A DNA stretch of 39,319 nucleotides from positions 1 through 39,319 of IMG/VR virus record IMGVR_UViG_3300045965_000132. The stretch is one strand, 5' to 3'. A program made the translations under genes and the position numbers. The notes under the pieces are model-generated. The model did no database searches and was not told the origin of the DNA. It was given only the letters and a program-made list of their open reading frames with translations. This document shows positions 28,017 through 39,319 of the stretch, piece by piece (the first letter of the stretch is position 1; the number at the start of each line of letters is the position of its first letter). The stretch comes from a virus.

Positions 28017-28414
28017 GAGGGCGCCTCGAGTGGTGATGTTGGCCACGCCACACCGAGCGCACGCACCGAATCCGCGACGAACTCGTTCAGGCGTGGATAG
28101 CCGTTGCTGCGAGCGTTCGTGATGATCCGGGCGACGTCTCCAGGACCGAGCTGCTCGATTGCGACGCGGCGGTAGAGCTCGGCGTGGAACGTGGCGTAGC
28201 GTTGGAGTTCGCGCGGATCCGCGGTGCCGATCGTGAGCGGCTTGCTCTTGGCGGCCTTGCGCACCAGGCTCACCAGCAGACCGCTCGCGTTGCGCACGAC
28301 CTTCCGCTTCGCCATGTCGATGACCTGGCCGGCGATCGCGTGCACGTCGACCTGCTCGTACTGGAGCGCCAGGCGGTCGACCAGGCCGGGCTCGAACAGG
28401 CTCGCGACCTTCAC
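28010..28414 (-). CDS. Hypothetical protein next to the replication gene
   Basis: 134 residues, mainly helical and basic (DMAKRKVVRNASGLLVSLVR; YATFHAELYRRVAIEQLGPG). GTG 28414 overlaps the TGA of the DUF1376 gene (GTGA) behind GGGGGAGG, so it is translated with it; its end overlaps csrA. Position immediately after a replication initiator would suit a helicase loader or primosome accessory factor, but no AAA or DnaC-like motif is present. Not recognised. Confidence 0.6.
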   Translation of the reverse strand: MKVASLFEPGLVDRLALQYEQVDVHAIAGQVIDMAKRKVVRNASGLLVSLVRKAAKSKPLTIGTADPRELQRYATFHAELYRRVAIEQLGPGDVARIITNARSNGYPRLNEFVADSVRALGVAWPTSPLEAPSC

Positions 28415-29157
28415 GCGGGCCTCCCCCGTAGCCGACGCAGCTGCTCGTCGCGCTCCTGGGCGGCGCCCTGCTCGGTGCTCACGTCGGCACCGGTGAGCGT
28501 GCCTCGAGACGTGGGGATGCCGGACATGATGCCGGCAAGGACCTGGCCTATCGGGGTCGGTCCCGTGCCAGACGGTGCGGCGCTCGATCGATCGGGTTCG
28601 GGTGTTCCCTGACGCGAGATATCGCCGGCCGTGCCGGCCTCTGGCGGCCCGACCCGTGTATCGGAGTCAGAATTTGGCACGGAGTAATTCTTAGATTCTT
28701 CTTTTAAGGCAGAGGCAGGGCTGACAGTTGAGCGACGGGTCGAGCGACGCTTGAGCGACGCATCAGCGACAGTTGAGCGACCTTCAAGCGACGATTCAGC
28801 GACGTTTGAGCGACGTCCCCAACGCATTGCGTTAGTTGCGTTTGCTCCACGCGTCGCTATTTCCCGCCTCTCGATCTGTGCTTTTCGCTCCCGAATTGCT
28901 CTCCGTTGAAGCCACGTTCCGTCGTCCCGCACCTGAAATCTCTCCGAAAAAACCTGTCGGTGGGCTGGCCATTCCTCCTCGGTGTACCCCGCCCAGCGCC
29001 TCACCTGGTCCTCGGTCATGACCCCTGGGGTTGGGGTCTGGTGCGTGAACGCCAGGACGTCGATATACCCCCCGCGCTCGTCGCGAGACATGCCGCGGGT
29101 GTCGACGATCCAGTCGCGCCAGTAGAACTGGCTTGACGGCGCTCGATCTCGGGCCAT
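28411..29157 (-). CDS. Replication initiator-like protein, DUF1376 N-terminal domain
   Basis: 248 residues. Residues 8-100 are a DUF1376 (YdaU-type) domain: FYWRDWIVDTRGMSRDERGG, DVLAFTHQTPTPG, then WAGYTEEEWPAHRQVFSERF and DDGTWLQRRA. Such domains are typical of phage replication proteins acting like lambda O. Residues ~113-145 are a Ser/Arg-rich linker encoded by the 11-bp iteron array. The C-terminal part (GTGPTPIGQVLAGIMSG and RDEQLRRLRGR) is probably a partner-binding region. ATG 29157 overlaps the previous stop (TGATG). With the internal iterons it is the best candidate initiator. Confidence 0.82.
   Translation of the reverse strand: MARDRAPSSQFYWRDWIVDTRGMSRDERGGYIDVLAFTHQTPTPGVMTEDQVRRWAGYTEEEWPAHRQVFSERFQVRDDGTWLQRRAIRERKAQIERREIATRGANATNAMRWGRRSNVAESSLEGRSTVADASLKRRSTRRSTVSPASALKEESKNYSVPNSDSDTRVGPPEAGTAGDISRQGTPEPDRSSAAPSGTGPTPIGQVLAGIMSGIPTSRGTLTGADVSTEQGAAQERDEQLRRLRGRPA
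28671..28833. other. Candidate replication origin: AT-rich block, eight iterons, dyad
   Basis: Within the DUF1376 gene, the plus strand shows eight copies of a 9-base core (consensus TTGAGCGAC) starting at 28728, 28740, 28751, 28762, 28773, 28784, 28795 and 28806, a spacing of 11 bp after the first. The period equals about one helical turn. On one side lies an AT-rich stretch (28671-28707, including TAATTCTTAGATTC) that stands out in this GC-rich genome; on the other a perfect dyad AACGCA-T-TGCGTT (28821-28833). Lambda carries iterons and an AT-rich unwinding element inside gene O in the same way. Confidence 0.75.
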
Positions 29158-31831: not shown

Positions 31832-32712
31832 GAGGCCACCTCCTCGCCCTCGGGCATCGACTCGAACGCCCGATCGGTGACGGTGGCCATGACGGGGCCC
31901 GGGAACATGCCGGGCCAGCGGTCGTCCCGCTCGCAGGCCTCGAGCGTCATCATGAGCTGCTCGTTCCGGACACTCCCGCAGACCAGGGCGGCCTGCTCGA
32001 GCTCGAAGACGCCGACGTCGTGGGGCGGCGTCGACTCGACGGCGATGAAATAGAACAGGGGAACCTCGCGCCCGAGCCGGGAGAGGCCGTCCATGTACCA
32101 GGCGGCCTTCCGGTGGTAGCCGTAGCGCGTCATCTCGTAGGGGCTGAAGTCGCGCAGCGAGCGCGTCGTCTTGACGTCTGCGACCCAGCCCTCACCCAGT
32201 AGGTCGGCGCGGCCGCGGCAGAGGCGCGGCTTGCCGGTCTTCCCGTGAGGCCAGCCCCACCAGAGCATCGTCAGCTCACGCTCGCGCGCCCGCGGCAGCA
32301 GCCGGCCCACCCGGGGGTGCGCCGTGATCGAGAGTGCCATGGCCCGGACCTTCTCCATGACGTCGGTCCGGAGCACCGTGAAGCCCCCCTGCTCGATGTC
32401 CGCGACCGCGTCCTTGTAGGCCCGGGTCGCGCGCGGCTTAGAGTTGCCGGCGGCGACGTCGAGCGGCTCCAAGACGAAGCGCTTCTCGAACAGCTCGGGC
32501 TCGAGCACCGCGGCGTGCAGCGCCGTGCCGAGTGCGAGTGACGGTGATTCCTCCGCCGGCTGGCCGAGCCGCCAGCGGTAGTGAAGCGGACTCACCTCGA
32601 GCCACTCGAGTCGGCCCGAGTTCATGGCGTCGAACTTCAGGTACTCGGCCATCGGGACGTCTCGGTAGAAGCCGCCCTCGACGGGATCGGCCAGCACGCG
32701 CTCAGTCGTCAT
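31828..32712 (-). CDS. RecE/exonuclease VIII-like PD-(D/E)XK exonuclease
   Basis: 294 residues. The N-terminal SPLHYRWR and LGTALHAAVLEPELFEKRF segments, followed by CRGRADLL (Asp170), VADVKTT (Asp179, Lys181) and YGYHRKAAWYMDGL, are the ordered motifs of the RecE C-terminal exonuclease family. The enzyme chews the 5' strand of double-stranded DNA to expose 3' ends for annealing. ATG 32712 overlaps the repeat-protein gene by 11 bp. No RecT was recognised; the 241-residue protein two genes downstream is a possible partner. Confidence 0.9.
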   Translation of the reverse strand: MTTERVLADPVEGGFYRDVPMAEYLKFDAMNSGRLEWLEVSPLHYRWRLGQPAEESPSLALGTALHAAVLEPELFEKRFVLEPLDVAAGNSKPRATRAYKDAVADIEQGGFTVLRTDVMEKVRAMALSITAHPRVGRLLPRARERELTMLWWGWPHGKTGKPRLCRGRADLLGEGWVADVKTTRSLRDFSPYEMTRYGYHRKAAWYMDGLSRLGREVPLFYFIAVESTPPHDVGVFELEQAALVCGSVRNEQLMMTLEACERDDRWPGMFPGPVMATVTDRAFESMPEGEEVAS

Positions 32713-33760
32713 GGCTCACCCTCCGCTCCACGAGCTCGCCATTAACGACCTCGTACCACGTGTCCGCCTTGATGCCATCCTCGCCGACGTAGCCCACGGC
32801 AACGCGCGGCCGACCTTCGACCTGGTCGCCATCCCACCACGCGATTACGACGCAGCCCTTCTCGCCTGCGCGAGCTCGGCTCTTCAAGCCAAGGCAGGCG
32901 GCGATCGAGCACTTGCCGGCGGTGGACGCCGGCGCGCGGTCCCCGGCGGTGGACGCCGGCGCGAGGTACCCGGCGGTGGACGCCGGCGCGCGGTGCCCGG
33001 CGGTGGACGCCGGCGCGCGGTACCCGGCGGTGGACGCCGGCGCGAGGTTCCCGGCGGTGGACGCCGGCGCGCGGTCCCCGGCGGTGGACGCCGGCGCGCG
33101 GTCCCCGGCGGTGGACGCCGGCGCGAGGTACCCGGCGGTGGACGCCGGCGCGCGGTCCCCGGCGGTGGACGCCGGCGCGCGGTCCCCGGCGGTGGACGCC
33201 GGCGCGAGGTCCCCGGCGGTGGACGCCGGCGCGCGGTGCCCGGCGGTGGACGCCGGCGCGCGGTACCCGGCGGTGGACGCCGGCGCGAGGTCCCCGGCGG
33301 TGGACGCCGGCGCGCGGTGCCCGGCGGTGGACGCCGGCGCGCGGTACCCGGCGGTGGACGCCGGCGCGAGGTCCCCGGCGGTGGACGCCGCACCCTCCCA
33401 TGCCTTGCTGTTCATCCGAATATAGGCGGTAGCTCCCACCAGCCCGCGCGCCTGGCCCTGCTGCACGAAGACCAGTTCACCCGTCCGAAACTTAACCTTC
33501 GAACCGTCGGGGAACCGCACGAGGTTTTCCGACGAATCCTCAACTTTGTAGATCTGCCACCATGCGAGAGGATCGTCGAGGCGCATCAGCCCGTAATCGC
33601 CGAGCCCGTACTCCAGCCCGTGAATGCCGCCGCCGCACTGCGCTCTGCCATCCCAGTCTGGAGCCGTCACAACAGCGCCGACCTCGATCGGATGCTTGAA
33701 ACCGTTGTAACTACCGCCATCCGCCTCGCATGTGCGCAACACGAGCACCGTCTTCGTCAC
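32702..33760 (-). CDS. Repeat protein with 18 nonapeptide units and conserved C-terminal domain
   Basis: 352 residues in three parts. Residues 1-120 form a globular head (GGGIHGLEYGLGDYGLMRLD; ENLVRFPDGSKVKFRTGELV). Then 17 full and one partial nonapeptide repeats follow, consensus ASTAG-[DYHN]-[LR]-AP. The C-terminus has CSIAACLGLKSRARAGEKGC, VVIAWWDG and IKADTWYEVVNGELV, a recurrent ending of proteins with ASATG/ASTAG-type repeat stems. Such repeats probably build a beta-solenoid. It lies between HNH and RecE-like genes and has no export signal, so an intracellular role is expected. Function unknown. Confidence 0.8.
   Translation of the reverse strand: MTKTVLVLRTCEADGGSYNGFKHPIEVGAVVTAPDWDGRAQCGGGIHGLEYGLGDYGLMRLDDPLAWWQIYKVEDSSENLVRFPDGSKVKFRTGELVFVQQGQARGLVGATAYIRMNSKAWEGAASTAGDLAPASTAGYRAPASTAGHRAPASTAGDLAPASTAGYRAPASTAGHRAPASTAGDLAPASTAGDRAPASTAGDRAPASTAGYLAPASTAGDRAPASTAGDRAPASTAGNLAPASTAGYRAPASTAGHRAPASTAGYLAPASTAGDRAPASTAGKCSIAACLGLKSRARAGEKGCVVIAWWDGDQVEGRPRVAVGYVGEDGIKADTWYEVVNGELVERRVSHDD
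32916..33390 (-). repeat. 27-bp tandem array with one four-way variable base per unit
   Basis: Seventeen full and one partial unit of 27 bp, contiguous and nearly identical in DNA. On the minus strand each unit reads GCG TCC ACC GCC GGG NAC CKC GCG CC-. N is G (8 units), T (5), C (3) or A (1), giving Asp, Tyr, His or Asn. K is T in every third unit exactly and G in the others (Leu/Arg/Arg), so a perfect 81-bp higher-order period overlies the 27-bp one. The absence of silent drift implies recent expansion or homogenisation. Confidence 0.95.
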
Positions 33761-34059
33761 GCGGCACGCTCCCGGAGCCGGCGGCCCCGCGCATAGGCGT
33801 CCTGCATGTTCGTGCTGTGGTTCCCGGCGTAGAGGTGTTGCGGCCGCACACAGGCCGGCGTGTCGCAGTGGTGGCAGATGATCCGGCCCTTCGGGATCCG
33901 GCCGTGGAACAGGCGGTAGGCCACGCGGTGCGCGTAATGGACGATGCCGCGGAGCTTGAAGATCCCGTAGCCCTCGCCCATCCGGGCGCGGCGCCAGATC
34001 CAGCAGCCGCCGGCCGTGACCCGGACGTGCCGACGCAGGGACTCGCGCGTGAGGATCAT
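33757..34059 (-). CDS. HNH endonuclease
   Basis: 100 residues with a complete HNH_3-type core: GGCWIWRRARMGEGYG start, HYAHRVAYRLFHG, IICHHCDTPACVRPQHLYAG (His63/His64, metal Cys residues) and GNHSTNMQDA (Asn80). Such enzymes nick or cut DNA; in cos-type phages HNH proteins near terminase assist end formation, while others are free-standing homing nucleases. It sits between the SbcC-like ATPase and the repeat gene. ATG 34059 overlaps the ATPase stop. Confidence 0.92.
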   Translation of the reverse strand: MILTRESLRRHVRVTAGGCWIWRRARMGEGYGIFKLRGIVHYAHRVAYRLFHGRIPKGRIICHHCDTPACVRPQHLYAGNHSTNMQDAYARGRRLRERAA

Positions 34060-35336
34060 GAACGCACCCCCTGCGCGGCGGCCGCGGCGACGGTCCCGTC
34101 CTCGATGACGACGGTCGCGCCCTCAGCCTCCACCCGCTCGAGCCAGAGCTGGGTGTCGTACTGGTCCGCGAGCTGCCCCATGAGCTCGAGCGCCTCGCTG
34201 TCGAGCAGCGAGGCGTCGCGCACCAACATGACGCGGAGCGACGGATTGAGCGCCGCCCCGATCGCGACCGAGACCCGGAGCTGCTCGGCCGCAGACGCCT
34301 GGTCGAACGGCAGGCCGTTGAGCGTGACGCCGCCGTTCACATCGAAGGCGAGCCCCTCAACCGGGAACTGCGCCTCCGCGATCGCCTTCTGCTTGGCGGC
34401 GAGGATCCCGTCGATCCGCTCCGTGAGCTTCGCCGACTCGGCCCGCTTTGCCTCGAGTTCGCGCTCGGCGGTCGCGCGAGAACGGTTCTCGCGTACCTTG
34501 CGGTTCGTCGCCTCGAGACCAGCCAGGCGCTCGCGGAGCGGCGCCAGGTCGACGTCCACCAGCTTGTCGACGCCCGCCTTCCACTCGGCGACGTTCAGCC
34601 GCTGGACCTCGGCACGCTTCTCGTACTCGGCAAGGCTGGCGGTGAGGGTCGCGATCTGCTCGCGGCAGGTCGCGATCGCGTCCTCGGTATCGTGTACGCG
34701 CTGGACCAGCTGCTCGGTCTTCTCGCGCGCATCCTTGTGCGAGAGGTTCGTCTCCTGCGCGCGTTCGATCTCGTCGAGCAGCTCGTGCGCCGAGACCTCG
34801 AGCTCCGGCGCCTCGTGCTGCGCGGGTATGCCGTCCAGGCGCGCCTTGAGCGCACGCCCCTCGCGGTTCACATCGGTCCGGGCGTTGAACGCCGCGTCGC
34901 GCTCCCGGTCGAGCTCGGCGAAGTCCAGACCCACGAGGGCCCGCAGCGTCGCCGCCTGGCCGGCCGGAGCCATGCGTGCGAACTCCAGCGGGTCGAACGA
35001 CAGGCTGCCGGTCAGGTCGTTGAGCCGGCCCTGCGGCGAGGTGAACCGGGCGCCGTCCTTGGTCTCTACGGTGAGAGTTCCGCCCCCCTCGGCCGTGAAG
35101 GTCCGTCTCACGATGAGTTCGCCGAGGTCGCAGGTGACCTCGGCGTGCTTCTCGCCGCGGCGCACCGGTTCCTTGCAGATCAGGTCCTTGCCGCCGAGCG
35201 CGTAGGCGATCGAATCGAGCACGGAGCTCTTTCCCTGCCCGTTGCGCCCGCCGACAATGACGACGTTCCCGTCCGGGCGGATCTCGACGGCCCGGATGCG
35301 CTTCACGTTCTTGACGACCAGGTCGAGGATCTTCAT
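34056..35336 (-). CDS. RecF/SbcC-like SMC-type ATPase
   Basis: 426 residues from ATG 35336. The N-terminus has VVKNVKRIRAVEI and the Walker A loop GGRNGQGKSSVLDSIAYALG (residues 29-48). A central coiled coil (about 140-330) contains heptads such as ERAQETNLSHKDAREKTEQL and AELEAKR-type runs, without a clear zinc hook. The C-terminal half-site has QLRVSVAIGAALNPSLRVML and RDASLLDSEALELM, the signature and Walker B region. Such ATPases act in DNA end processing or recombination. No SbcD-like nuclease is encoded; the HNH gene overlaps its stop and could be the partner. Confidence 0.9.
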   Translation of the reverse strand: MKILDLVVKNVKRIRAVEIRPDGNVVIVGGRNGQGKSSVLDSIAYALGGKDLICKEPVRRGEKHAEVTCDLGELIVRRTFTAEGGGTLTVETKDGARFTSPQGRLNDLTGSLSFDPLEFARMAPAGQAATLRALVGLDFAELDRERDAAFNARTDVNREGRALKARLDGIPAQHEAPELEVSAHELLDEIERAQETNLSHKDAREKTEQLVQRVHDTEDAIATCREQIATLTASLAEYEKRAEVQRLNVAEWKAGVDKLVDVDLAPLRERLAGLEATNRKVRENRSRATAERELEAKRAESAKLTERIDGILAAKQKAIAEAQFPVEGLAFDVNGGVTLNGLPFDQASAAEQLRVSVAIGAALNPSLRVMLVRDASLLDSEALELMGQLADQYDTQLWLERVEAEGATVVIEDGTVAAAAAQGVRS

Positions 35337-35524
35337 GGCCGCCCCCGCAGGAGCTCGAGCAGGCCGAGCAGGTCGGTCCACACGAGGGGAGCGACGTGGC
35401 CGCCGAAGTAGACGGCGGCCACGAACAGCATGACGGCGATGATGAACTCCCCGGTCGGGCGGGGAGCCCGGTCGGGGTCGAACGATGGGACGTGACGCGA
35501 GGGAGCTTTCTGGTCGGACTTCAT
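35333..35524 (-). CDS. Small single-pass membrane protein
   Basis: 63 residues from ATG 35524 behind GGAGGTC. It has a charged Pro-rich N-terminus (SRHVPSFDPDRAPRPTG) and one hydrophobic segment (residues 27-50, FIIAVMLFVAAVYFGGHVAP), and ends LLGLLELLRGRP. It is the first gene of the leftward early operon after the 35571-35647 dyad, with its stop overlapping the ATPase start. A superinfection-exclusion or host-takeover role would suit such a gene; nothing specific is seen. Confidence 0.65.
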   Translation of the reverse strand: MKSDQKAPSRHVPSFDPDRAPRPTGEFIIAVMLFVAAVYFGGHVAPLVWTDLLGLLELLRGRP

Positions 35525-38958: not shown

Positions 38959-39319
38959 CCGTGGCGCCCTCCTCCCCGTCGGCCGAATCCATGGCCCCCC
39001 GCAAGGCGGCCCGTAAGCACTCCGCCATCAGTCGCCGACACTCCCCCACGTCGCCGGTCGCCGCCATCTGGGCCGCCAGCTGCGCCGGCACCCGCAACAC
39101 GGCCTCTTTCACCCGCTGCGCGGACTCGAATGCCTGCCGCGCCACCTCGTCCGCCCGCACCAGGATCCCTCGGCGCTCGTCGGCGTCCATCTGGGCCAGC
39201 TCGAGGCGCAGCTGCTCGTGCTTGGTTCGTACGGAGTTGAACGTCGGCCCCACCGGAGCCTTGACAGGGGCTGGCCCACCCCTACGCCTGGCCCCGATCG
39301 AGGTGCCCTGCCGCTTCGC
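38942..39319 (-). CDS. Terminase small subunit, C-terminal part (begins at 331)
   Basis: Continuation of the small terminase begun at base 331. This part is almost entirely helical and charged: from about residue 90 it has heptad-like Leu/Arg/Glu stretches (TKHEQLRLELAQMDADERRG), then a basic-hydrophobic helix, and it ends in an acidic Asp/Glu/Gly tail. Such a region would oligomerise the subunit and contact the large terminase. It overlaps the next gene (start 38958) by 17 bp, so the two are translationally coupled, and the large subunit follows within 400 bp, as in lambda Nu1-A. Confidence 0.85.
   Translation of the reverse strand, partial: AKRQGTSIGARRRGGPAPVKAPVGPTFNSVRTKHEQLRLELAQMDADERRGILVRADEVARQAFESAQRVKEAVLRVPAQLAAQMAATGDVGECRRLMAECLRAALRGAMDSADGEEGATDGDGG
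39193..39319. repeat. Right copy of 127-bp terminal overlap
   Basis: Exact duplicate of bases 1-127. It lies inside the terminase small-subunit gene, whose reading frame continues through it into the left end of the window. Collapsing one copy gives the true circular map. Confidence 0.95.

Follow-up and report, generated by a model that had tools for sequence, protein, structure and literature searches.

Origins of replication that lie inside the gene of their own initiator are an established kind, with examples in lambda O, SPP1 gene 38 and TP901-1. Ori-lambda, located in gene O, and the origins of Shiga-toxin phages consist of intragenic iterons followed by an AT-rich tract (PMC7466680), and oriL of SPP1, in gene 38, combines direct repeats with an AT-rich unwinding element within the gene for the origin-binding protein (PMC6316719). 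The replisome organizers of TP901-1 (ORF13) and Tuc2009 (Rep2009) are described as binding direct-repeat-rich origin regions in their own genes (PMC8965321), and the Rac prophage as having an active origin, oriJ (PMC3945230).

The locus considered here lies in a viral DNA record of 39,319 bases, the whole of which was analysed and is called the window. It carries eight iterons and an AT-rich block in the middle of a gene with a DUF1376 domain, and array and block together very probably form a replication origin inside its own initiator gene, working like ori-lambda. The likeness to ori-lambda lies in the succession of iterons and AT-rich tract in the middle of the initiator gene, a putative one in the window: in the lambda locus (L321), four annotated iterons at 39034-39118 are followed by an AT-rich stretch. 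Behind this stretch a palindrome can be made out by eye, which our hairpin scan did not list; nor did the scan list a TAAA/TAAC tetraloop hairpin in this locus. The two loci differ in that the lambda iterons are 18 bp long with starts 20–24 bp apart, whereas the steps in the window are of 11 bp. The likeness to SPP1, a Bacillus subtilis phage with the initiator gp38, consists of repeats and an AT-rich element inside the initiator gene, putative in the window, and that to the lactococcal phages TP901-1 and Tuc2009 of repeats within such a gene.

In Rac, the DUF1376 gene ydaU is next to ydaV, which encodes an IstB-like ATPase, and the repeats of ydaU are not significant. The reference attached to oriJ is reportedly Potrykus 2000; a statement placing oriJ in ydaU was not found in the literature searched. 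In agreement with the sequence-only reading, which knew of no described origin of this layout for the DUF1376 family, we found no account linking DUF1376 with an origin of replication or with iterons in the literature searched, in which DUF1376 is named by five papers (subscription papers lay mostly outside it).

An iteron array inside a DUF1376 gene

The features of the locus are as follows.

28411..29157, minus strand: putative replication initiator gene, 248 aa (P0001); best PHROG 'primosomal protein', E 1.2e-12
28894..29130, minus strand: DUF1376 domain (PF07120), predicted winged-helix-like, proposed iteron binder; Pfam E 6e-10
28821..28833: 13-bp dyad AACGCATTGCGTT, judged to be due to chance and not counted as a part of the origin
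28728..28815, minus strand: iteron array with eight copies of a core that reads GTCGCT in the sense of the gene; steps 11 bp (six) and 12 bp (one)
28809..28814: iteron core 8 (AGCGAC)
28798..28803: iteron core 7 (AGCGAC)
28787..28792: iteron core 6 (AGCGAC)
28776..28781: iteron core 5 (AGCGAC)
28765..28770: iteron core 4 (AGCGAC)
28754..28759: iteron core 3 (AGCGAC)
28743..28748: iteron core 2 (AGCGAC)
28731..28736: iteron core 1 (AGCGAC), next core 12 bp on
28658..28717: AT-rich block, proposed DNA unwinding element, downstream of the array in gene orientation

The eight core repeats claimed by the sequence-only reading are real, as AGCGAC occurs eight times at 28731-28814. Its even 11-bp spacing was confirmed for six steps, the first step being of 12 bp. 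Tandem Repeats Finder reports a period of 11 with 7.9 copies at 28728-28815, and none of 500 dinucleotide shuffles of the DUF1376 gene matched the periodicity of the array. The density of AGCGAC is 8 per 100 bp at the array and at most 2 per 100 bp anywhere else in the window. Moreover, the chain score of this array is the highest among 127 DUF1376 representatives.

The eight copies lie in reading frames 1, 0, 2, 1, 0, 2, 1 and 1. A hexamer that is invariant across three frames cannot be a product of protein coding and is a DNA signal, in line with the earlier view that selection acts here on the DNA and not on the encoded Ser/Arg linker. The placement of the array inside a DUF1376 gene was also confirmed, since the PF07120 profile matches at 39.8 bits against a Pfam cut-off of 30.1; the PHROG label of this host gene, 'primosomal protein', points to a putative initiator.

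The gene has no close relative in our searches, of which one gave none, another a single record at 28% and a third matches of 34% at most. The model of the DUF1376 domain reaches a mean pLDDT of at least 90 in every block of residues 11-110. In VIA-align it weakly resembles winged-helix domains, with a best Z of 6.3, to an ORC chain, among the structures listed; several transcription regulators are among the weak fold matches. Foldseek gave no match to the domain model at E values up to 0.001, and no chain with sequence kinship to the domain was found by a profile search of the PDB. The DNA-binding initiator domain of PDB 4pt7 and 5kbj, a RepA_N-type initiator of staphylococcal plasmids, aligned to model residues 7-86 with a Z of 4.4–4.5, which is below the trusted range and may reflect a common arrangement. 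In such a staphylococcal plasmid initiator, the iterons also lie within the rep gene. Kinship of DUF1376 to lambda O was rejected (hhalign probability 0.3%, E 0.2), and none of the five PHROG matches of P0001 is labelled O-like.

The record also encodes a lambda-family portal, a Phage_capsid-family capsid, a GpA-type terminase and an exonuclease VIII-like (RecE-like) protein. Near the exonuclease VIII-like gene, an SMC/RecN-like AAA protein is encoded at 34056-35381 (phrog_1499, E 1e-98). A 27-bp tandem repeat of 17.6 copies with 94% match is present at 32916-33390, in an ORF (32702-33760) that matches PHROGs labelled unknown or tail fibre. The scan of window ORFs, which covered a part of them, revealed neither a helicase gene nor a partition gene.

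An AT-rich block next to the array

The conspicuous AT-rich block that the sequence-only reading had pointed out, on the array side opposite the DUF1376 domain, turned out, when melting energies were computed, to be less stable than any other part of the record at three window lengths. The lowest duplex stability in the 39.3-kb record was found for the 30-bp window from 28682 (rank 1 of 39,289), the 40-bp window from 28668 (rank 1 of 39,279) and the 60-bp window from 28658 (rank 1 of 39,259); the best 100-bp window at the block ranks 66th of 39,219.

The 13-bp perfect dyad, earlier counted as a flank of the origin, is present at 28821-28833, on the array side away from the AT-rich block, but the frequency of dyads with 6-bp arms and a spacer of 0–3 bp is 12% among shuffles of this stretch and 22% among the 163-bp windows of the record. 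At such a chance-level frequency, we ruled it out as a part of the origin. The sequence-only reading had also named a change of GC skew as a mark of the origin; the cumulative curve is flat at the array locus, with no turn.

Periodic arrays behind the DUF1376 domain in relatives

DUF1376 genes were collected from viral contigs, named and further genomes, Rac (ydaU) and one phage record. A profile built from seed sequences was applied to 321 sequences and detected the gene in 315; L155-L160, the six loci in which it was not detected, were left out. Clustering at 70% gave 136 clusters. The 132 representatives with a linker of at least 200 nt entered the first test, and the 127 with a linker of at least 300 nt the later ones; some control sets are smaller, owing to genes of insufficient length or to neighbouring ORFs absent from the set.

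In the first test, a significant tandem period behind the domain was found in 56 of 132 representatives, and in 48 of these 56 it was 11, 12, 22, 23 or 24. The controls gave 6/132 for the domain itself, five of the six at period 11, and 7/90 for the rest of the gene. When 3- and 6-bp repeats were masked, chains with 11/12-bp steps were present at p≤0.02 in 65 of 127 DUF1376 representatives vs. 1 of 116 neighbouring ORFs, and at p≤0.05 in 78/127 vs. 8/116. A periodic array is thus found in relatives at the same place, as the sequence-only reading had proposed to check. Without masking, at p≤0.033, chains were found behind the domain in 76/127, within it in 18/127 and further downstream in 6/105; the 18 domain chains are above expectation, and the domains are not independent of one another because they are homologous.

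The spacing is confined to two values. With a single fixed step, 48 of 127 representatives were found at 11 bp and 31 at 12 bp, as compared with 0–4 at 9, 10 and 13–18 bp. In the chains of at least three copies (p≤0.02), 126 of 204 steps are of 11 bp and 78 of 12 bp, many relatives having 12-bp steps or a mixture of the two. The position is also fixed: in a scan of the whole gene, the best chain begins within 180 nt around the domain end in 82/127, where 25.8 would be expected by length, and 37 of the 41 chains with a score of at least 12 lie at one place behind the domain. Averaged over 127 genes, GC relative to the gene has its minimum in windows beginning 90–120 nt behind the domain.

The iteron motifs vary by lineage (e.g., AGCAATGCTCA, ATGCCAATCGC and CGTTCAACGAA), and similarity of motif is weakly correlated with similarity of domain (Mantel 0.154, a value reached in 10 of 2000 permutations; 64 genes). 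In one relative, L389, the AGCGAC core recurs at 11 bp within the DUF1376 gene as well, but runs in the reverse direction with respect to the gene.

Hexamer repeats and hairpins behind the iterons

The relatives contain two further elements. One, a 6-bp tandem repeat with roughly three units (such as ACCCAC, TCACCT or CAGTCA), is present in 66 of 127, compared with 0.24% of shuffles, 0/127 domains and 1/115 downstream stretches, and the other, a hairpin with a stem of at least 7, in 54 of 127, compared with 5.7% of shuffles, 5/127 domains and 9/115 downstream stretches. Among 56 tetraloop hairpins with a stem of at least 6, the loop is TAAA in 15, TAAC in 14, TGAC in 4, TAGC in 1 and another sequence in 22. 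Stem sequences vary. Of the 34 hairpins with a TAAA, TAAC, TGAC or TAGC loop, 30 are closed by a C-G pair, and loops of these types occur in 5 of 3,810 shuffles. In 32 of the 33 representatives with a TAAA, TAAC or TGAC loop, the first loop base is the third base of a codon (xCT RAM Gxx).

Where two elements co-occur, their order is constant, iterons preceding hexamers in 37/37 cases, hexamers preceding the hairpin in 23/23 and iterons preceding the hairpin in 18/18, although the search stretches for the three elements, which overlap and are not identical, may partly favour this order. All three elements are found together in 9/127 representatives. When the domains are clustered at 50% identity, iterons occur in 16 of 26 clusters and at least one of the three elements in 20 of 26. 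Random sequence at this place, which the sequence-only reading had named as an outcome that would speak against it, is not what most relatives show; it does describe a minority, as 27 of 127 representatives have none of the three elements by the thresholds used. YdaU of Rac is one of these, its chain not being significant (p 0.115).

The window has iterons alone of the three elements, in addition to its AT-rich block: no 6-bp repeat over the threshold and no tetraloop hairpin were found in it, its best hairpin, 201 nt behind the domain, having a stem of 6 bp and a loop of 3 bases. Rfam searches assigned no family to the hairpin in any of 14 loci, and none to the window. Among the papers met in literature searches for other terms, we found no account of a 6-bp repeat block and tetraloop hairpin behind iterons. 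The hexamer block and the hairpin may have a role in strand opening or priming.

Natural recombinants

Four loci, L322 to L325, form a set of natural recombinants. From the hairpin, which is common to all, through the C-terminus, L322/L323 and L324/L325 are 88–97% identical, and the 6-bp repeats of the four are near-identical. In contrast, their DUF1376 domains are 56–59% identical between the two pairs, and their iterons differ, being of the ATGCCAATSGC type in one pair and of the AGCAATGCTCA or GCAAATGC type in the other. Between L324 and L325, 78% of the domain is shared, and the iterons also differ in detail. Domain and iterons thus appear to move together, as is expected if one binds the other.

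Similar arrays in other initiator genes

We also searched the viral contigs by DNA pattern only, asking for three GTCGCT at 11-bp steps. This gave 85 stretches. Setting aside 6 duplicates and 17 stretches whose array is not covered by an ORF of 100 aa leaves 62 ORFs, of which 59 were scanned. A DnaD-like helicase loader PHROG was matched by 38 of the 59 and an O-like initiator PHROG by 22, the two groups overlapping, and one was a DUF1376 gene. Behind the arrays of the 57 ORFs that entered this count, a 9-bp repeat was found in 15, a 6-bp repeat in 5 and a stem of at least 7 in 11, the shuffle rates being 0.2%, 0.2% and 3.5%, respectively.

Initiator-like phage genes with AGCGAC arrays at 11-bp steps include L343, L358, L383 and L387, among others, and several such genes have a AAGAATGAA-type 9-bp repeat behind the array. 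Hairpins with TAAC/TAAA loops lie behind the iterons of L347, L357 and L399, which had been picked by DNA pattern and not by DUF1376.

A permuted hexamer, CTGCGT, at the same spacing had been intended as a negative control. It gave 54 stretches, and among the 43 ORFs scanned, 14 matched DnaD-like and 4 'primosomal' PHROGs, a smaller share than for GTCGCT; three of these ORFs are DUF1376 genes with arrays. Since the permuted core also meets initiator genes, the control fails to separate motif from spacing. It suggests that the spacing, 11 bp being the one scanned, rather than the GTCGCT hexamer marks initiator genes. A DnaD-like kinship of the DUF1376 domain was rejected when the domain was compared with 12 N-terminal domains of array-bearing ORFs (hhalign probability 0.1%).

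Downstream of DUF1376 genes, the next ORF (at least 110 aa) matched a DnaB-like helicase in 11 and an IstB-like ATPase in 3 of the 55 scanned, one of them being ydaV of Rac; the 55, out of 112 ORFs, are chiefly the longer ones. The YdaV ATPase bears a likeness to DnaC.

No account bringing together DnaD-like proteins, iterons and phages was found in the literature searched, most subscription papers being outside it. The review of phage replication modules by Weigel and Seitz 2006 may, reportedly, already list some such genes.

Discussion

The interpretation of the array as an origin, first put forward by the sequence-only reading, is supported by these data. By analogy with lambda O, SPP1 gp38 and TP901-1/Tuc2009, we infer binding by DUF1376, melting, helicase recruitment and origin activity. 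The DUF1376 domain, predicted to be winged-helix-like, would bind the 11-bp iterons. A step of this length is about a full turn of the helix, so that bound molecules would be stacked along a single face of the DNA in a nucleoprotein complex. This complex would open the AT-rich block next to it, and recruitment of the replicative helicase or its loader would fall to the C-terminal part of the initiator.

Could the array be an operator instead, bound by the DUF1376 protein or by a repressor that controls transcription through the gene, with no replication start? Helically spaced repeats suit any stacked DNA-binding protein, and the transcription regulators among the weak fold matches of the model agree with such a role. 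However, the array lies mid-gene and adjoins the least stable stretch of the record, the strong arrays of the relatives sit at one place behind the domain (37/41), and similar arrays are present in initiator genes of other families, so that we regard an operator as unlikely. Arrays of 11-bp repeats are also known from plasmid centromeres, and a partition site, or another phage DNA site such as one for packaging, could have come to lie in this gene by chance; yet the window ORFs scanned, a part of the total, include no partition gene, and array and DUF1376 domain go together in the recombinants, which makes this very improbable. That the array is a protein-level tandem repeat of the Ser/Arg linker without a function at the DNA level can hardly be maintained: the linker is indeed of low complexity, and relatives with 12-bp steps repeat a peptide every four residues, but the hexameric core stays unchanged across all three frames and the commonest spacing is 11 bp (126 of 204 steps).

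With the origin as the preferred reading of the array, a broader proposal can be made, tentatively and with rather less than even confidence. Unrelated phage initiators might share one intragenic origin plan, of which the DUF1376 phages would be one branch: 11/12-bp iterons immediately behind the DNA-binding domain, then a 6- or 9-bp tandem repeat, then a hairpin with a restricted set of tetraloops that would act on single-stranded DNA or on the transcript, perhaps to signal priming or helicase loading. With iterons placed between the binding and recruitment domains, recombination in the linker would swap specificity and origin at once.

The DUF1376 domain, which has no assigned function, occurs in phages and in prophages such as Rac of E. 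coli K-12. Our finding offers it a concrete predicted role, that of an origin-binding initiator, and the replication start of DUF1376 phages would become predictable from sequence alone.
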